This document shows positions 3,592 through 57,150 of a stretch of DNA of 64,000 bases, in pieces. The stretch's first letter is position 1. Each line of letters opens with the position of its first letter. Location: assembly GCF_902832845.1 (NCBI RefSeq), contig NZ_CADFDB010000011.1, positions 124,001 to 188,000 on the forward strand, written 5' to 3'. The DNA is from Burkholderia metallica (GTDB lineage: Bacteria > Pseudomonadota > Gammaproteobacteria > Burkholderiales > Burkholderiaceae). The position numbers and the translations under genes were made by a program. Below the pieces are notes generated by a model, which worked only from the letters and a program-made list of their open reading frames with translations, was not told the origin of the DNA and made no database searches.

Positions 3592-5118
3592 TCAGAAGAA
3601 CCCGAGCGCCTCGGCCTGATAGCTCACCAGCAGGCACTTCGTCTGCTGATAGTTCGACAGCGCCATCTTGTGCGTCTCGCGACCGATCCCCGACTGCTTG
3701 TAGCCGCCGAACGCCGCGTGCGCCGGATACAGGTGATAGCAGTTGGTCCACACGCGGCCGGCTTCGACCTCGCGGCCCATCCGGTACGCACGCGTGCCGT
3801 TGCGCGTCCACACGCCCGCACCGAGCCCGTAGAACGTGTCGTTCGCGAGTTCGATCGCTTCCTGCTCGTCCTTGAACGTCATCACCGACGCGACCGGCCC
3901 GAAGATCTCTTCCTGGAACACGCGCATCTTGTTGTTGCCGAGCAGCATCGTCGGCTTCACGTAGTAGCCCGTGCCGAGTTCGGCCGCCGGCGCCGTGCGC
4001 TCGCCGCCCGTCAGGCATTGCGCGCCCTCGCCGCGGCCGATGTCGATGTAGGACAGGATCTTGTCGAGCTGCTGCTGCGAAGCCTGCGCGCCGATCATCG
4101 TCTGCAGGTCGAGCGGGTGGCCGCCCTTGATGCGCTCGACGCGCGCGACGGCCTTCTCGATGAACTTCTCGTAGATCGACTCCTGGATCAGAATCCGCGA
4201 CGGGCACGTGCATACTTCGCCCTGGTTCAGCGCGAACATCGCGAGCCCTTCGAGCGCCTTGTCGAGAAACGCGTCGTCCTGGTCGAGCACGTCGGCGAAG
4301 AAGATGTTCGGGCTCTTGCCGCCCAGTTCGACCGTCGACGGAATCAGGCTGTCGGCCGCCGCGCGCAGGATGTGCTTGCCGACCGGCGTCGAGCCGGTGA
4401 ACGCGATCTTCGCGATGCGCTTGCTGGTCGCGAGCGCCTCGCCCGCTTCCTTGCCGAAGCCGTTCACGATGTTGATCGTGCCGGCCGGGAACAGGTCGCC
4501 GATCAGCTCCATCAGCACCAGCACCGACGCGGGCGTCTGCTCGGCCGGCTTCATCACCACGCAGCAGCCGGCCGCGAGCGCCGGCGCGAGCTTCCACGCG
4601 GCCATCAGCAGCGGGAAGTTCCACGGGATGATCTGGCCGACCACGCCGAGCGGCTCGTGGAAGTGATACGCGACGGTGTTGTCGTCAATTTCGGAAATGC
4701 CGCCTTCCTGGGCGCGGATGCAGCCCGCGAAGTAGCGGAAGTGGTCGATCGCGAGCGGCAGGTCGGCCGCCATCGTCTCGCGCAGCGGCTTGCCGTTGTC
4801 GATGGTCTCGGCCACCGCCAGCAGCTTCAGGTTCTTTTCCATCCGGTCGGCGGCCGCGAGCAACAGGTTCGCGCGCTCCGCGACGGACGTCTTGCCCCAC
4901 TTGCGGCGCGCGGCATGCGCGGCGTCGAGCGCCAGCTCGATATCGTCGGCGCCCGAGCGCGGAATACGGCAGAACGGCTGGCCGTTGATCGGCGACACGT
5001 TCTCGAAATACTCGCCCTTCACCGGCGGAACCCACTTGCCGCCGATGTAGTTGTCGTACTGCTGACGGTACGGGTATTCGACGTCGAGGCCCAGTTGCTT
5101 CAGGTCAAACGGGTTCAT
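3592..5118 (-). CDS. exaC: NAD-dependent acetaldehyde dehydrogenase, ExaC/AcoD type
   Basis: This 508-residue enzyme matches the roughly 506-residue ExaC/AldB/AcoD subgroup of aldehyde dehydrogenases. Visible are the PWNFPL block near 165, the FTGSTPVGK cofactor motif near 240, the general-base Glu264 in VELGGK, and catalytic Cys303 in NQGEVCTC. Start ATG 5118 follows an AGGAG site at 8-base spacing. It oxidises acetaldehyde to acetate in the cytoplasm. With EutBC nearby it would handle the acetaldehyde released from ethanolamine; ethanol or acetoin breakdown are alternative sources. A sigma-54-type promoter lies about 55 bases upstream of the start codon, consistent with sigma-54 control known for acoD-type genes. 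Confidence 0.92.
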
Positions 5119-5184
5119 ACATGTCTCCTGTTCATCGTGCTTGTACGAGTAAAGCGCCGGTTGGATTGCGCTGCACCCGGTTAC

Positions 5185-5199
5185 GCAACATGCGTGCCA
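5185..5199 (-). promoter_or_regulatory. sigma-54 (-24/-12) promoter of exaC
   Basis: On the minus strand the sequence reads TGGCACG-CATG-TTGC, an exact match to the sigma-54 consensus TGGCACG-N4-TTGC. Transcription would start near 5173, leaving a leader of about 55 bases before the exaC ATG. A sigma-54 enhancer-binding activator would be required; none is encoded in this window. Confidence 0.8.
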
Positions 5200-5288
5200 A
5201 ACACGACGAATACGAGACGCCCCCGGCACGCCCGCGTACGCACCGTGCGGTGTTCACCCGCGCAGCACGGCGGGTGTGCCGATTCTGA

Positions 5289-5340
5289 ACAGTGCGACTG
5301 TGCAGCGCGCCGGACCGGTGTTCGAAATTCCCACAGTGCG
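5289..5340. promoter_or_regulatory. Candidate enhancer sites between two divergent sigma-54 promoters
   Basis: ACAGT-GCG-ACTGT forms a perfect short inverted repeat at 5289-5301, and the half-site ACAGTGCG recurs at 5333-5340, 44 bases (about four helical turns) away. Both lie between the exaC promoter and the opposing sigma-54-type promoter, where an enhancer-binding protein could serve both directions. Function is inferred from position and repetition only. Confidence 0.4.
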
Positions 5341-5377
5341 CCACGGCGCGCGGCATGCGGATGCGGGCCGCGACGTG

Positions 5378-5392
5378 TGGCATGTCGCTTGC
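5378..5392 (+). promoter_or_regulatory. sigma-54-type promoter of the second PNPOx gene
   Basis: TGGCATG-TCGC-TTGC keeps the essential GG and GC of the sigma-54 consensus with correct spacing and only one departure (T for C). The predicted transcription start is near 5404, which argues against the ATG at 5402 as the start of the downstream gene and favours 5417 or 5441. Confidence 0.6.
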
Positions 5393-5416
5393 GTGCGCAT
5401 CATGGAATCCCACGCA

Positions 5417-5869
5417 ATGGCCTGCACGCACACTCCCACCATGAACGACCACGGCCCCCTGACCGACGACGCCATCGCGTTCATCCGCGAGCAGGCGTTC
5501 CTGATCGTCGCGACCGCCGACGCGGCAGGCAACGGCGACTGCTCGTACCGCGGCCGCCAGCCGCGCGCCGACGGCTCGTTCGAGCCGCTCGTCGACATGC
5601 CCGACCGCTGCACGCTCGTGCTGCCGGATTTCGCGGGCAACAACCTGTTCAACACGATCGGCAACCTGCTCGTGAATCCGGCGATCGCGCTGCTGTTCGT
5701 CGATTTCGTGCGGCAGACGACCTGGCTCGTGCAGGGCCGCGCGACGATCGACGCGCACACGGAAAGCCGCGCGCACCTGTGGCCCGATGCGCGGCGCCAT
5801 GTGGTCGTTGAAGTCGAGCGCGCACAGGCACGGGCGGATGCGACGCTGCCGTCGCTGGTGCTGGCGTGA
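5417..5869 (+). CDS. Small PNPOx-fold flavoprotein family member
   Basis: The 150-residue protein (142 if started at ATG 5441) begins its folded part at GPLTDDAIAFIREQAFLIVA and contains DCSYRGRQP, LVLPDFAGNN, a LLFVDFVR strand and VQGRAT, a compact split-barrel PNPOx-family protein likely to bind FMN. The start is uncertain because no candidate ATG has a ribosome site. ATG 5402 falls before the predicted start of transcription from the sigma-54-type promoter at 5378-5392. It diverges from exaC and shares strand motifs with the PNPOx gene at 2769-3332. The enzymatic role is unknown; a link to aldehyde or amine metabolism is inferred from context. Confidence 0.75.
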   Translation: MACTHTPTMNDHGPLTDDAIAFIREQAFLIVATADAAGNGDCSYRGRQPRADGSFEPLVDMPDRCTLVLPDFAGNNLFNTIGNLLVNPAIALLFVDFVRQTTWLVQGRATIDAHTESRAHLWPDARRHVVVEVERAQARADATLPSLVLA

Positions 5870-5982
5870 TGGGCATGATGCGCGTGACGTGAGCGCGCGA
5901 ATGAAGCGATGACGCAATGCGAAGGCGCGCCGGCCGCCGTGGCTTGCGCGCCCGTACGCGCCCATGCGCAACGACGCGGCGC

Positions 5983-49630: not shown

Positions 49631-50524
49631 TTACTCTTCAGCCGCGACGTTGCCGCGCAGCCGCGCGAGAATGCCCTCGAGCGCATCGAGATTGCCGAAG
49701 TCGATCGTCACCTGCCCTCGCCCGCGGCGGCCGAGCTTGATCTTCACGGTCGACGCGAGCAGGTCGGACAACTCCTCCTCGAGACGGCGCGTATCGCGGC
49801 CGCCGTCGTCCTTCGCCCGCGCCTTCACGGCCGGCGCTTCCTTCGTCGTATGCGCGACGAGTTTCTCGGTTTCGCGCACCGACATGCGCTTGTTGACGAC
49901 CTGATGGGCGAGCGTGATCTGCGTGGCCGCATCGACGGCGAGCAGCGCGCGCGCGTGCCCCATGTCGAGATCGCCGGCGAGCAGCATCGTCTGCACCGGC
50001 GCTGCCAGGTTCAGCAGGCGCAGCAGGTTCGACACCGCGCTGCGCGAACGGCCGACCGATTCGGCCGCCTGTTCGTGCGTGAAACCGAACTCGTCGAGCA
50101 AGCGCTGGATACCGTGCGCTTCTTCAAGCGGGTTCAGATCCTCGCGCTGGATGTTCTCGATCAGCGCCATCGCAGCGGCGGCCTGATCCGACACATCCTT
50201 CACGAGCACCGGCACTTCATCGAGGCCCGCGAGGCGCGCCGCGCGGAAACGGCGCTCGCCTGCGATGATCTCGTATTTGTCTGACGAAATGGGGCGTACC
50301 AGGATCGGCTGCATCACGCCCTGCGCGCGAATGCTCGCCGCGAGCTCCTGCAGGCTGCCTTCGTCCATCCGCGTGCGCGGCTGGTATTTGCCGGCCTGCA
50401 GCTTGCCGAGCGTGAGCGTGTTCGGCGCCCCTTCGATCTTCACCGCTTCGGTGATATCGGCACTGCCGCCGAGCAGCGCTTCGAGGCCACGTCCCAAGCC
50501 CTTCTTCTTTGGTACCGCGTTCAT
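49631..50524 (-). CDS. parB: Chromosome partitioning protein ParB (Spo0J)
   Basis: From ATG 50524 the protein is 297 residues. It begins with KKKGLGRGLEALLG (the ParA-stimulating tail). It has the CTPase/ParB box GERRFRAARLAGL at 89-101, the helix-turn-helix FTHEQAAESVGRSRSAVSNLLRLL, and a C-terminal dimerisation domain. It loads at parS (TGTTTCACGTGAAACA, present at 54563 and nearly at 52607) and spreads to organise the origin region. Confidence 0.97.
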   Translation of the reverse strand: MNAVPKKKGLGRGLEALLGGSADITEAVKIEGAPNTLTLGKLQAGKYQPRTRMDEGSLQELAASIRAQGVMQPILVRPISSDKYEIIAGERRFRAARLAGLDEVPVLVKDVSDQAAAAMALIENIQREDLNPLEEAHGIQRLLDEFGFTHEQAAESVGRSRSAVSNLLRLLNLAAPVQTMLLAGDLDMGHARALLAVDAATQITLAHQVVNKRMSVRETEKLVAHTTKEAPAVKARAKDDGGRDTRRLEEELSDLLASTVKIKLGRRGRGQVTIDFGNLDALEGILARLRGNVAAEE

Positions 50525-50555
50525 GTCTTTCTTCCTCGCTTCGCTCATATCCGGA

Positions 50556-51335
50556 TCACGACACTTCGAACGCACGGACGCGGTCGATCATCTCGGCACC
50601 GAACTGGAGATACGCTTGCGCACCGCGCGAGCTGCGGTCGAACACGACGCCCGGCAGCCCGTAACTCGGCGCTTCCGCCAGGCGTACGTTGCGCGGAATC
50701 ACCGCGTCGAACACCTTGTCGCCGAAGTGCGCTTTCAATTGATCGGAGACCTGCTGCTGCAACGTGATACGCGGGTCGAACATCACGCGCAGCAAGCCGA
50801 TGATCTTCAGGTCGCGGTTCATGTTCGCGTGAACCTGCTTGATCGTGTTGACGAGGTCCGACAGCCCTTCCAGCGCGAAGTATTCACACTGCATCGGGAT
50901 CACGACGCCATGCGCCGCGCACAGCCCGTTCAGCGTCAGCAGCGACAGCGTCGGCGGGCAGTCGATCAGCACGAAATCGTAGTCGTCGGCCACGCGCTCG
51001 AGCGCCGCCTTCAGCCGGCGCTCGCGGTTGTCGATGCCGATCAGTTCGATCTCGGCGCCGGACAGCTCGCGGTTCGCGGGCAGCACGTCGTAGGTCACGC
51101 CTTCCGGACGCACGCGCGCATCGCTCACCGACACGCCGTCGACCAGCACTTCGTACACGGTCGATTCGCACGCGGCCTTGTCGATCCCGCTGCCCATCGT
51201 CGCGTTGCCCTGCGGGTCGAGATCGATCAGCAGGACTCGTTGCTCCTGCGCTGCAAGGCTTGCGGCGAGATTGACCGATGTCGTCGTCTTGCCGACGCCC
51301 CCCTTCTGGTTCGCAACGCAGAAGATCTTTGCCAT
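50556..51335 (-). CDS. parA: Chromosome partitioning ATPase ParA (Soj)
   Basis: From ATG 51335 the protein is 259 residues. It has the deviant Walker A KGGVGKTT at 11-18, LLIDLDPQGNATMGSG, and FVLIDCPPTLSLLTLN. It forms ATP-dependent DNA-bound gradients that pull ParB-parS complexes apart. The small, direct-binding length (no N-terminal helix-turn-helix) is typical of chromosomal Soj. Confidence 0.97.
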   Translation of the reverse strand: MAKIFCVANQKGGVGKTTTSVNLAASLAAQEQRVLLIDLDPQGNATMGSGIDKAACESTVYEVLVDGVSVSDARVRPEGVTYDVLPANRELSGAEIELIGIDNRERRLKAALERVADDYDFVLIDCPPTLSLLTLNGLCAAHGVVIPMQCEYFALEGLSDLVNTIKQVHANMNRDLKIIGLLRVMFDPRITLQQQVSDQLKAHFGDKVFDAVIPRNVRLAEAPSYGLPGVVFDRSSRGAQAYLQFGAEMIDRVRAFEVS

Positions 51336-51386
51336 CGTTGGTGTGTTCCCTTTACCTTCAAACAAACAGCGCGCTAACGCGCGCCT

Positions 51387-52073
51387 TCAATCCGCCTCGT
51401 CGACGGCCACTTCGAACAGATGCCGTTCGGCATCGAGCATCGGCACCGCCAGCCGGATCGTCTGCTTCACGCGGCTGCCTTCCGGCAATCGTGCAATCTC
51501 GTCGTCCGGGTGAACGCCCTTCATTGCCCAGATCGATCCACCCGGCGCGACCAGATGTCGAGCAAGTTTAACGAAGTCGGACAGATCAGCGAAGGCGCGG
51601 GAGACGATCATGTCGAATTTTTCCGGCACTTCGACACCCGGCTGCAGCGATTCGACCCGCCCGGTGACCACCGACAGATTCGCGAGCTTCAGCTCCGCGC
51701 GCATCTGGGTCTGGAATGCAGACTTCTTCTGCACGATATCGTTCAGTGTGACCTGCCAGTCCGGCTCGACGATCGCCAGCACGATGCCCGGCAACCCGCC
51801 GCCCGAGCCGACGTCGAGCACGCGGGCCGAGGCACGGCCACGCAGATGCGGGACGATGGAAAGCGAATCGAGGATGTGCTGAATCAGCATCTGCTTCGGG
51901 TCGCGGATCGCGGTCAGGTTGTAGACCGCGTTCCACTTGCCGAGCAGCCCGACGTAGTCGAGCAACTGGTTGCGTTGGGCATCCGTCAGTGCGAGGTCGA
52001 GCGCCGTCGTGCCTTCGACGAGCATCTGTTCCAGTACGTCCCGATTAACCGCCGGCGCGCGACGCGCCGTCAT
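51387..52073 (-). CDS. rsmG: 16S rRNA (guanine-N7) methyltransferase RsmG
   Basis: From ATG 52073 the protein is 228 residues, with the SAM motif [11 protein letters not shown] at 86-96 and [14 protein letters not shown] near 46. It methylates N7 of G527 of 16S rRNA. Its start overlaps the mnmG stop by four bases, as commonly seen for gidA-gidB. Confidence 0.96.
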
Positions 52074-54040
52074 TGTTGCGTCGGGACGGTACCGTCCCCC
52101 TGCTCCGTTGCCGCTTCGGCAGTGCCAGGACGGCGGCCCAGGCCGCGGCGCTTCAGGTGCACCATCAGCAGCGAGATCGCCGCCGGCGTGACACCCGAGA
52201 TGCGCGATGCCTGCCCGATCGTCTCCGGCCGGAATTCGTTGAGCTTCTGGCTCACCTCGAACGACAGGCCGCGGACTTCGCGGTAATCGATACCGTCCGG
52301 CAGGCGCGTGTTCTCGTTCGCATCGTTGCGTTCGATCTCCGAAGCCTGGCGCTCGATGTAGCCCTGATACTTGATGCCGATCTCGACCTGCTCCTTGATC
52401 TGTTCGAGCAGCACCGGATCGTCGGCCAATGGTTCTGCGGGGCCACATTCGCCGCCCTTCAGGCCGCACACGCCGTCATAGCTGATACCCGGACGGCGCA
52501 GCAGCTCCGCGAGACTGTATTCGTGATCGATCGCCTTGCCGAGCAACGCGGTCGCCTCTTCCGGCGGCAACGTCTTCGGCGTCACCCACGTCGACTTCAG
52601 GCGTTCGGTTTCACGTGAAACAGCGTCGCGCTTCCGGCTGAACGCATCCCAGCGCGCGTCGTCGACGAGGCCCAGTTCGCGGCCGATCTCGGTCAGGCGC
52701 ATGTCGGCATTGTCTTCACGCAGGCTGAGGCGATACTCGGCGCGGCTCGTGAACATCCGGTACGGCTCGGCCACACCCCGCGTCACGAGATCGTCGACCA
52801 GCACGCCAAGGTAGGCTTGGTCGCGGCGCGGGCACCATGCGTCCTTCTCCTGCACATAGCGCCCTGCATTGAGGCCGGCCAGCAAACCCTGGGCGGCCGC
52901 CTCTTCATAGCCGGTCGTCCCGTTGATCTGGCCCGCAAAGAACAGCCCGTTGATCGCCTTCGTTTCCAGCGACGCCTTCAGCGCGCGCGGGTCGAAGTAG
53001 TCGTACTCGATCGCGTAGCCGGGGCGCAGGATATGCGCGTTCTCGAGGCCGCGCATCGAGTGCACGAGTTCGAGCTGAACGTCGAACGGCAGGCTCGTCG
53101 AGATCCCGTTGGGATAGAACTCGTTGGTCGTCAGCCCTTCCGGCTCCAGGAAGATCTGGTGCGATTCCTTCGATGCGAACCGGTGGATCTTGTCCTCGAT
53201 CGACGGACAATAGCGCGGGCCGACGCCTTCGATCACGCCTGTATACATCGGCGATCGGTCGAGGCCGCCGCGGATGATGTCGTGCGTGCGCTCGTTCGTG
53301 TGCGTGACCCAGCACGGCAGTTGCTGCGGATGCTGCTCCGCGCGGCCCAGGAACGAGAACACGGGGATCGGATCAAGATCGCCCGGTTGTTCGTCCAGCT
53401 TCGAGAAATCGATCGAACGGCCATCGATACGCGGCGGCGTACCGGTCTTCAGGCGGCCCTGCGGCAGCTTCAGTTCCTTCAGGCGCGACGACAGCGACAC
53501 GGCCGCCGGATCACCCGCGCGGCCGCCCGTGTAGTTGTTCAGGCCGACGTGGATCTTGCCGTCGAGGAACGTGCCGGCGGTCAGCACGACCGCACGGGCG
53601 CGGAAGCGGATGCCGATCTGCGTGACGGCACCCACCACGCGGTCGCCTTCGACCATCAGGTCGTCGACGGCCTGCTGGAACAGCCAGAGGTTCGGCTGAT
53701 TCTCGAGCCGGTGGCGGATCGCCGCTTTGTACAGGATGCGATCGGCCTGCGCACGCGTCGCGCGCACGGCCGGCCCTTTCGACGAGTTCAAAATCCGGAA
53801 CTGGATGCCGCTTTCGTCGGTTGCGGCGGCCATCGCGCCACCCAGCGCATCGACTTCCTTGACCAGATGGCCCTTGCCAATGCCGCCGATCGACGGATTG
53901 CAGCTCATCTGCCCGAGCGTTTCGATGTTGTGAGTCAGCAGCAGTGTCTTTGCGCCCATGCGGGCAGACGCCAGCGCAGCTTCCGTGCCGGCGTGACCGC
54001 CACCGACGACGATGACGTCAAATTCTGTGGGAAAAAGCAT
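52070..54040 (-). CDS. mnmG: tRNA uridine-5-carboxymethylaminomethyl modification enzyme MnmG
   Basis: This 656-residue FAD protein has GGGHAG at 13-18, [14 protein letters not shown] and [11 protein letters not shown]. With MnmE it makes the wobble-uridine cmnm5 modification. It heads the rsmG-parA-parB group. A parS-like sequence at 52607-52622 is embedded in the codons for SRET. The -10 TATAAT at 54097-54102 lies just upstream. Confidence 0.97.
52607..52622. other. parS-like site inside mnmG
   Basis: GGTTTCACGTGAAACA matches the 16-base parS consensus TGTTTCACGTGAAACA at 15 positions and the symmetric 14-base core exactly. It is inside the mnmG coding region, as parS sites often are, about 2 kb from parAB. 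Confidence 0.9.
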
Positions 54041-54096: not shown

Positions 54097-54124
54097 ATTA
54101 TAGCGGGTTCGCTTTTCAACCGAA
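54097..54124 (-). promoter_or_regulatory. Promoter of mnmG
   Basis: On the minus strand TATAAT (54102-54097) is a perfect -10; the -35 (TTCGGT, 16-base spacer) is poor. It lies 57 bases before the mnmG ATG. Confidence 0.5.
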
Positions 54125-54546
54125 TGCCGTCCGAATGGTAGGGTCTGTGCATTTCGACGATTTTCGGCGACGGGCCGAGGAATCTGTGGCCCGGAACCCG
54201 CGCCGGCAGTGCGTCTGGACTTCCCGGCCGCACCTCGCGGCGCCTGTGCAAAGATCCGGCTGCCGGGAAGACTCTTGTGGAACACGCGGCCTATTCGATG
54301 CCTGTGACCAGCACGGCGCCCCGGACGAACCACCCTGTGCGACCGCACCACCCTCGTCCCCACAGAATTTTCGTCGGTTCGCCCGGCATTTATCCCCTGT
54401 GACCCGGCACCCATCGATCTGTGGAACACTCGGCAACCCTGCCGAACGGCCCCTCTTCCGGCTCCGCTGCACAGAACTTCCGACTGCTTTCCTGATACTT
54501 ATCCCCGGGCTGCGACCCGCTAACGCATCGGCATCACACCCCACCC
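54125..54546. other. Intergenic region rich in TGTGG/TTATCCCC motifs
   Basis: Between mnmG and livF there is no supportable gene. CTGTG/TGTGG-type motifs occur at about 54144, 54183, 54243, 54277, 54301, 54334, 54358 (reverse), 54398 and 54420. TGTGGAACAC is repeated exactly at 54277 and 54420, and TTATCCCC at 54390 and 54499. These resemble degraded DnaA boxes; none is a perfect TTATCCACA. An origin role is possible but unproven. Confidence 0.4.
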
Positions 54547-54583
54547 GAAAACAAAAACGGCGTGTTTCACGTGAAACACGCCG
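54547..54583 (-). terminator. Terminator of the livF operon formed by parS
   Basis: The 26-base perfect palindrome 54558-54583 (CGGCG, parS, CGCCG) is followed on the minus strand by TTTTTGTTTT. It lies 27 bases after the livF stop and has the shape of a strong intrinsic terminator, with a loop at the parS centre. Confidence 0.8.
54563..54578. other. Perfect parS site
   Basis: TGTTTCACGTGAAACA is an exact match to the bacterial chromosomal parS consensus recognised by ParB/Spo0J. It sits about 3.2 kb from parAB and is extended to a 26-base palindrome. Confidence 0.95.
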
Positions 54584-54610: not shown

Positions 54611-55366
54611 TCAGGCCGTCTTCTTCGCCAACCCAAGGTAGGTTTCGATCACACGCGGATTCTGCGCGAGTTCGGCCGCGGGCCCTTCGAGCGCAAACTC
54701 GCCCGTCTCCAGCACATAGCCGTAATCGGAGATCTGCAGCGCCGCCCGCGCATTCTGCTCGATCAGCAGCGTCGCGACGCCCGTACCGCGCAACGCGCTG
54801 ATGATATGAAAGATCTCTTTGACGATCAGCGGCGCCAGCCCGAGGCTCGGCTCGTCGAGCATCAGCAAGTCGGGCTTGCCCATCAGCGCGCGGCCCACCG
54901 CAAGCATCTGCCGCTCGCCGCCGGACAGCGTGCCGGCAGCCTGCTTGCGTCGCTCCTTCAGCCGCGGAAACAGCGCAAACACGTGATCGAGCTGGTCGAG
55001 GAAGTTCGCTTCACCGGCCTGCTTGCGCCGATACGCGCCCAGCACGAGGTTGTCTTCGACCGTCATCGTGCCGAACAGCTCGCGTTTTTCCGGGACGAGG
55101 CACATCCCGCGCGCGACGCGCTGCTCGACCGGCAATGCACCGACGTCGTGGCCGCGATACACGACCGCGCCCGACGCATGTCCTGTCACCGGCAGCGCGC
55201 CCATGATCGCGTTCAGCAGCGTCGATTTGCCGGCCCCGTTCGGGCCGATCACGCTGACAATCTGCCCGGCCCCCACCTTGATCGCCGCGCCGTGCAGCGC
55301 CTCCACCTTCCCGTACCGGACCGCCAGCCGGCGTACTTCGAGAATCGGCATCGTCGTGTCCGTCAT
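54611..55366 (-). CDS. livF: Branched-chain amino acid ABC transporter ATPase LivF
   Basis: From ATG 55366 the protein is 251 residues. It has GPNGAGKST at 41-49, [19 protein letters not shown], the signature LSGGERQML, Walker [14 protein letters not shown] and the C-terminal ETYLGLA. It powers uptake of Leu/Ile/Val or related compounds with LivG. Its ATG overlaps the fused livM-livG stop by one base. Confidence 0.95.
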
Positions 55367-57150
55367 CACTCCACCCCGCCCAGATATGCTTCGAGCACCG
55401 CCGGATCCTGCTGCACGTCCTGCGGCAGCCCTTCCGCGATCCGTGTGCCGAACTCCATCACCACCAGCCGGTCGGTGAGATTCATCACGAAATCCATGTC
55501 GTGTTCGACGAGCAATACGCTCATCCCTTCGGCCTTCAGCCGCCGCAGCAGGTCGGCAAGTTGCTGCTTCTCCTGGTAACGCAGCCCGGCGGCCGGTTCG
55601 TCGAGCAGCAGCAGCGTCGGATCGCAGCACAGCGCCCGCGCGATTTCGAGAATCCGCTGCTGGCCCAGCGCGAGGCTCCCCGCTTCGTCGTACATGTGCT
55701 TTTCGAGCCCGACGCGGCGGATCTGGCGCGCGGCCTCGGCCAGCAACTGCGCTTCCTCACGGGCATTGAGCCGCGCCACGCTGCGCCACACGCCCGTGTG
55801 GCCGCGCAGGTGCGCACCGATCGCGACGTTCTCGAGCACCGTCATCGCCGGCAGCAGCTTCACGTGCTGGAACGTCCGGCCGATGCCGCGGCGGACGATC
55901 TGGCGCGATGTGAGCCCGTCGATGCGTTCGCCACGGAACGTGATCGTGCCGCCCGTCGGCTTCAGCACGCCCGTCACGAGGTTGAACGTGGTCGACTTGC
56001 CGGCGCCGTTCGGGCCGATCAGCCCGATAATCTGCCCCGCTTTCACGTCGAAGCTGACGTCGTTGACGGCCACGAGCCCGCCGAACTGCTTGCGCGCGTT
56101 GTCGACGACGAGCAGCGGCTCCCCGGCCGCCGGCTTCGCGCGCTGCGGCAACGGATCGGCGTGCTCGGGCACATGCGCACGCGGCCCGCGCGGGAACAGC
56201 CTCGCGACGAACGGCCACACGCCCTGGCGCGCGTACTGCAGTAGCAGCACCATCAGCACGCCGAACACGATGATCTCGAAGTTGCCTTCCGAGCCGAGCA
56301 GTTTCGGCAGCAGCGTCTGCAGGTAGTCCTGCAGCACGGTCAGGATCGCCGCGCCGAGCACCGCGCCCCACACGTGCGACACACCGCCGACCACGGCCAT
56401 GAACAGGAACTCGATCCCGTGGTTCAGCCCGAACGGCGTCGGGTTCACCGCGCGCTGCAGGTGCGCGTACAGGAAACCCGACACGGCCGCGAGCACGGCC
56501 GCATAGACGAAGATCACGACGCGCATCCACGCGGTGTTCACGCCCATCGCCTCGGCCATCACGCCGCCGCCGCGCAGCGCGCGGATCGCGCGGCCCGGGC
56601 GGCTGTTCAGCAGGTTCTGCACCGACACGATCGCGGCCAGCACGACGGCCCAGATCAGGAAGTACAGGCTGCGGCCGCTTTCGAGCGCGATGCCGAACAG
56701 GTTCAGCGCCGGAATCCCGTTGATCCCGTCGTACTTGCCGAGCAGTTCGAGGTTGCCGAACAGGTAGAACAGCGCGAGGCCCCACGCGATCGTGCCGAGC
56801 GGCAGGAAGTGGCCGGACAGCCGCATCGTCACGGCGCCGAGCACGAGCGCGACGAGCGCCGTCAGCACGACGCCGACGATCAGCGCAAGCCATGGCGACA
56901 CGCCGTACCGCGTCGTCAGGAACGCGGTCGCGTACGCGCCGATGCCGACGAACGCGGCCTGCCCGAAGCTCGTCATCCCGCCGACTCCCGTCAGCAGCAC
57001 GAGCCCGATCGCGACGATCGCGTAGAGGCCGATGTAATTCAGCAGCGTGATCCAGTATTCGGGCACCTGCAGCGCGCCGGGCAGCACCGGCAGCGCGAAC
57101 AGCACCACGAGAAACACCCAGAAGGTCTTGTTGCGCACTATCGTCTTCAT
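55366..57150 (-). CDS. LivM-LivG fusion: ABC permease plus ATPase
   Basis: The 594-residue protein joins a LivM permease (residues 1-330, about nine membrane helices, [23 protein letters not shown] and [19 protein letters not shown]) to a LivG ATPase (from about 345, [25 protein letters not shown] and [16 protein letters not shown]). An AGGAG site precedes the ATG. A linker rich in Pro/Arg ([15 protein letters not shown]) separates the halves. It forms the inner-membrane pore with LivH. Confidence 0.93.

Follow-up and report, generated by a model that had tools for sequence, protein, structure and literature searches.

A chromosomal parS palindrome as a probable intrinsic terminator of the liv genes in Burkholderia metallica and related genera

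The window, a stretch of 64,000 nucleotides from the genome of Burkholderia metallica, contains a palindrome that probably performs two functions: as DNA it would be a chromosomal parS site, and as RNA the intrinsic terminator of the liv genes. This dual role had been proposed in the initial annotation and is well supported at the sequence level, since core, arms and T-run are kept together in most genomes of the genus and the arms change in pairs around a fixed core. From the paired arm changes, the fixed core, the positions of tolerated core variants and the contrast with genomes that have lost livF, it looks as if the core is held by ParB binding and the arms by RNA pairing. One short sequence is thus apparently under two selections separable letter by letter, with a fixed core and free-but-paired arms. 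It offers a natural setting for asking how ParB loading at a bacterial centromere and the termination of transcription there influence one another, and relatives with a lost livF, a lost T-run or a changed core are ready-made controls.

The palindrome and its gene neighbourhood

The 26-nt perfect palindrome (54558..54583) reads CGGCG-TGTTTCACGTGAAACA-CGCCG, and its halves, 54558-54570 and 54571-54583, are 100% complementary with a gap of 0, which bears out the initial annotation. In the minus-strand RNA it corresponds to an 11-pair stem with an ACGU loop, and further pairs reach into the tail. The parS core TGTTTCACGTGAAACA (54563..54578) matches the chromosomal consensus printed in the available text of PMC5450999 with 0 mismatches and lies less than 5 kb from the parAB pair. 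The outer arm on the livF side (54579..54583) pairs with that on the T-run side (54558..54562), and both show paired changes across genera. The T-run TTTTTGTTTT (54548..54557, minus strand) follows the stem on the livF strand and appears as an A-run on the plus strand, and the stop of the livF-type ORF (54611, minus strand) is separated from the palindrome by 27 nt; both the T-run and this distance are as had been noted.

At up to three mismatches, the window contains the 16-mer two times where 0.07 occurrences were expected, and none of 100 shuffles had two. In the 7.55 Mb genome TTTCACGTGAAA is found only twice, at the livF-side site and inside mnmG. The latter (52607..52622) is a second parS with one mismatch and is devoid of pairing arms plus a T-run. 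Of the 94 loci with a usable neighbour, 82 likewise have a parS in mnmG, and its position there seems to be shared. A site of the TTTCACGTGAAA type was found in each of the 61 genus genomes searched, and 49 of them contain two, usually 1.3-2.2 kb apart among the matches listed. The exact 14-mer was absent anywhere in 11 of 100 family genomes.

The minus-strand gene order, according to the ORF list and profile matches, is liv genes, livF, hairpin, mnmG, an ORF that we take to be rsmG, parA, and parB. The livF-like ABC transporter ATPase gene (54611..55330, minus strand), the start codon of which is not fixed, ends 27 nt before the hairpin; the best NCBIfam match of its product is LivF (1.3e-67, below the curated cut-off). 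The ORF upstream of livF (55366..57150, minus strand) is LivG-like in its C-terminal part, also below the curated cut-off. It encodes 594 amino acids, its N-terminal part is permease-like by eye, and LivM and LivG may be fused in it. The next gene downstream of the hairpin is mnmG (gidA) (52070..54040, minus strand; TIGR00136 above the cut-off), followed at some distance by a parA-like gene (50556..51338, minus strand; ParA_partition, 5.5e-31, below the curated cut-off) and parB (49631..50548, minus strand; TIGR00180 above the cut-off).

A -10-like element, TATAAT, can be read before mnmG (54097..54102, minus strand) and is a putative promoter element of this gene; a similar neighbourhood, AAAAGCGAACCCG.TATAATTC, is present in loci L248, L250, and L252. 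The search of the hairpin-mnmG gap for DnaA boxes gave four words at up to two mismatches against 0.4 expected and none at up to one mismatch; a DnaA-box cluster in this gap is mentioned as a side remark only. The long gap from the hairpin to the -10-like element (54101-54556) contains many CCACA and GCACAG words in addition to these four, and the gap in L248 and L250 is short and free of the DnaA-box-like and CCACA stretch.

Folding and conservation by gene context

The minus-strand RNA was predicted to fold at -27.2 kcal/mol (z = -5.4), and none of 200 shuffles was as good. Terminator-like matches in an 8-kb stretch numbered 4 versus 4.4 expected, i.e., not above chance, so that the case for a terminator rests on stem length, place, and comparison. 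The stem was counted at 14 pairs, seven of them G-C, and the T-run follows it directly. In a separate scan of the window, which gave 21 T-tailed candidates on the two strands, the hairpin had the second-best folding energy; in two scans, it was the only terminator-like hairpin between livF and mnmG. A gene on the same strand precedes it, and this placement, at most 100 nt after livF, is found in 48 genomes.

For comparison by gene context, 205 exact-core sites from 94 of 95 fetched loci were taken (L185, without mnmG or livF, was omitted); 48 of them, each from a different locus, follow livF by at most 100 nt, 82 are inside mnmG, and 75 lie elsewhere. A strong hairpin with a T-rich tail, defined as a dG below -15 with at least six T of eight, was found in 46 of the 48 sites after livF, in none of the 82 inside mnmG, and in two of the 75 elsewhere. 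The two post-livF misses, L169 and L189, are both without a T-run, and the two passes away from livF are L056 and L184. By a stricter count requiring consecutive Watson-Crick pairs and T-runs, 41 of the 55 sites in the mnmG-livF interval, at whatever distance from livF, qualified, compared with 0/82 in mnmG, 1/65, and 0/3 in the other contexts. The 14 misses include an extra site in L032; sites more than 160 nt from livF in L194 (four), L204, and L211; and L169 and L189. The others are L059, with a G-U in the arm, and L052, L155, L197, and L198, whose T-runs were partly scored as paired. In L194 (four cores) and L204, parS lies more than 1 kb from livF and the arms are absent. In genus g25, three of four regions have no exact core in the gap, and the core of the fourth is 166 nt from livF and without arms. 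The genome collection contains 47 stretches with an exact core, arm and T5, and their record titles all give Burkholderia, Paraburkholderia, or Caballeronia; this count may omit records of the window's own genome.

Within the genus, the comparison across relatives suggested in the initial annotation found the 32-mer that spans T-run, arms, and core, with at most three mismatches, in 60 of 65 genomes. The core is thus not conserved apart from its T-run and flanks; the three are kept together, and between genera the arm changes are paired. As mismatches were allowed anywhere, this comparison gives a less biased view of the core, as do the gap variants in genomes G009, G105, and G042. Among the 60 matched genomes, the 16 core columns showed one change and the 10 arm columns three. 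The T nearest the stem was changed in eight genomes and the outermost letter of the motif in four, and the other four T were unchanged in all 60. At the T nearest the stem, a substitution can create an additional G-C pair.

The ready-made palindrome was most likely co-opted as a terminator stem in the common ancestor of the four genera with the element, namely the window's genus, Caballeronia, and those coded g13 and g20. ParB would load on the core TGTTTCACGTGAAACA as DNA. When liv transcription crosses parS, the RNA stem would form and the polymerase would be released at the T-run, ahead of the -10-like element that precedes mnmG; termination would then shield mnmG and parA-parB, downstream on the same strand, from liv read-through. 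Both termination by RNA polymerase at this hairpin and ParB binding to it are predicted to occur in the cell.

Paired arm changes, livF loss and core variants

The window and 28 of the 48 post-livF sites, near copies being left out, were aligned in 29 rows from six genera. The aligned sites, like those of the gene-context and livF-loss counts, were picked by an exact 12-base core, and invariance of the core among them is built in. In the 29 rows, 98.9% of cells pair, and changes on both sides occur at five pairs and in 12 cells; none of 500 shuffles reached any of these measures, and sliding the partner by one to three columns gave at most two pairs and two cells. Two of the five double-changed pairs came from the T-run-less sites L169 and L189. 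Without these, in the 27 rows with a T-run, 99.7% of cells pair and three pairs and eight cells are double-changed, with shuffles at least as high in 0/500 (cells), 0/500 (score), 3/500 (pairs), and 44/500 (pair types). The eight cells belong to L163, L164, and L167 (g10), L197, L199, and L200 (g20), and L214 and L216 (g13), and are not independent events because the aligned sequences are related. The stem is thus kept by paired changes, and the fold predicted on the alignment was the same stem with two further pairs. G-U wobbles were considered as evidence for the RNA strand and rejected as too few, with two on the livF strand (L059 and G009) and only one on the other (G105).

At least six arm pairs beyond TTTCACGTGAAA, with G-U allowed, were present in 48 of 51 sites with livF versus none of the five with livF missing or disrupted (Fisher p 1.5e-5, uncorrected for kinship). 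The five genomes without an intact livF beside the site, G154, G057, and G032 of the window's genus and G152 and G104 of genus g8, have 1, 5, 3, 2, and 2 arm pairs, respectively. Their sites retain T-runs, by which they were recognised. Judged by taxonomy, they perhaps represent three separate losses. The five pairs of G057 (L056) amount to a single mismatch, and this site was still scored as a strong hairpin with a T-rich tail. The three sites of the 51 with livF in place and weak arms are L169, L248, and L250; genomes G042 and G105, with no exact core, are outside the 51. Weaker arms beside a present livF were seen in G029 and G044. G066 (L169) has neither long arms nor a T-run, and G076 (L189) has arms and no T-run.

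According to the available text of PMC5450999, ParBc1 of B. cenocepacia binds the 16-mer; symmetric changes abolish this binding, except at positions 1-16 and for the T5C transition, and some single-arm changes leave it intact in the same assay. Core variants in the livF-mnmG gap were found at outer position 1/16 in G009 and G154 and as T5C in G105 and G042, all four at positions that ParBc1 tolerates in that text. The core thus appears constrained as ParB binding demands, within a small and rough test: the variants are chance finds among the exceptions examined (four genomes) and are mostly one-sided, and the published list is symmetric. In G105, arms and T-run are kept around the T5C core. 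In L252 (G042), two inverted T5C parS copies replace one, giving a longer hairpin after livF with the T-run kept.

Multiple parS copies were also observed elsewhere. In genus g11, four copies lie upstream of mnmG in L195 (G090; 4942-5888) and in L194 (G137; 4870-5648); those of L195 are in near-repeats 234-467 bp apart, and the flanks of L194 differ. Extra TTTCACGTGAAA sites occur among the liv genes of L160 (1501-1512, inside the LivG match), L044, L046, L050, L053, and L064, with the outer letters departing from the parS consensus on one side.

Alternative explanations, known systems and reach across the phylum

The palindrome might be a parS site only, its arms and T-run being an extended ParB recognition site or due to chance. 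A long palindrome could suit a dimer reaching past 16 bp, and the core is unchanged in the aligned sites; however, the arm letters vary with pairing kept, which fits pairing and not letter reading, and the published ParBc1 binding assays used the 16-mer in a different flanking context (PMC5450999, available text). The hairpin with a T-rich tail is also missing from every mnmG-internal parS, and at the 55 mnmG-livF sites at least four T follow the stem on the livF strand in 42 cases versus three on the other side, so that this explanation is regarded as very unlikely. A terminator resembling parS and not used by ParB appears equally improbable, at the same very low level. The second parS in mnmG and the three g25 regions lacking an exact core in the gap would suit it, but a pure stem could drift by paired changes, and among the 60 genus genomes its 16 core columns show just the one change. 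In addition, the four core variants fall at ParB-tolerant positions, and the 16-mer is the exact consensus, close to parAB.

The preferred dual role could be extended if ParB on parS acted on termination or on read-through to mnmG and parA-parB, providing par feedback. The hairpin precedes parAB on the strand that they share, and ParB at the intergenic parS3 and parS4 of P. aeruginosa represses the neighbouring genes according to the available text of PMC5521831. Against this, mnmG has its own -10-like element beyond the hairpin, and an effect on a promoter is not an effect on termination, which leaves such feedback an unlikely addition. Similarly improbable is a wider scheme in which ParB would set the strength of the terminator and so link the segregation complex, liv transcription, and ParA/ParB supply in a loop, with parS taken over repeatedly in Pseudomonadota. 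On the core, polymerase may clear ParB or ParB may hinder polymerase, a question made real by the lowered transcription of neighbours that is reported for P. aeruginosa ParB (PMC5521831, available text).

The element shares with chromosomal parS of the Spo0J/ParB family the exact 16-bp consensus, the proximity to parAB, and variants at tolerated positions, and differs in lying within an RNA stem with paired changes and with a T-run at a gene end. With intrinsic (Rho-independent) terminators it shares a GC-rich stem base, a T-run directly after it on the right strand, a position 27 nt past the stop codon, and paired stem changes; it differs in its upper stem, which hardly drifts, being a predicted protein-binding sequence. 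Like parS3 and parS4 of P. aeruginosa, it is a parS between genes, and in those two cases ParB is reported to lower nearby transcription; the latter concern promoter repression, and terminators are mentioned only as parts of constructs in the available text of PMC5521831. Searches of the open-licence literature turned up no description of a chromosomal parS that serves as a terminator, which is weak evidence of absence. parS and terminator are each known kinds; what is possibly new is that one palindrome combines them under separable constraints.

Across the phylum, T5 at 0-8 nt after parS was found in 40 of 398 genomes versus 33 of 398 for the wrong-side A5 control, and a T-run after parS was rejected as a phylum-wide rule. 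The arms were compared outside the clade at T-side loci from 30 of the 40 matching genomes, minus four loci of the window's family (L224-L227), and at A-side loci from 30 of the 33 genomes. At least four Watson-Crick arm pairs were found in six of 27 T-side sites (five loci) versus none of the 32 A-side sites (Fisher p 0.007, uncorrected for kinship). Given these counts of arms and T-runs, parS may have become a terminator stem on more than one occasion, but this is not general. With the neighbouring genes identified by Pfam matches, the hairpin of L237 is symmetric and lies between convergent inositol-phosphatase and TetR-type genes, that of L222 has alcohol dehydrogenase and rho genes converging on it, and that of L233 comes after an amidohydrolase gene and faces a methyladenine glycosylase gene. 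The hairpins of L228 and L232 are not after a gene end, which speaks against a gene-end terminator role for all such hairpins. Within the window's family, L184 (genus g2) has a parS hairpin, also symmetric, with a SET-domain gene on one side and mnmG on the other.
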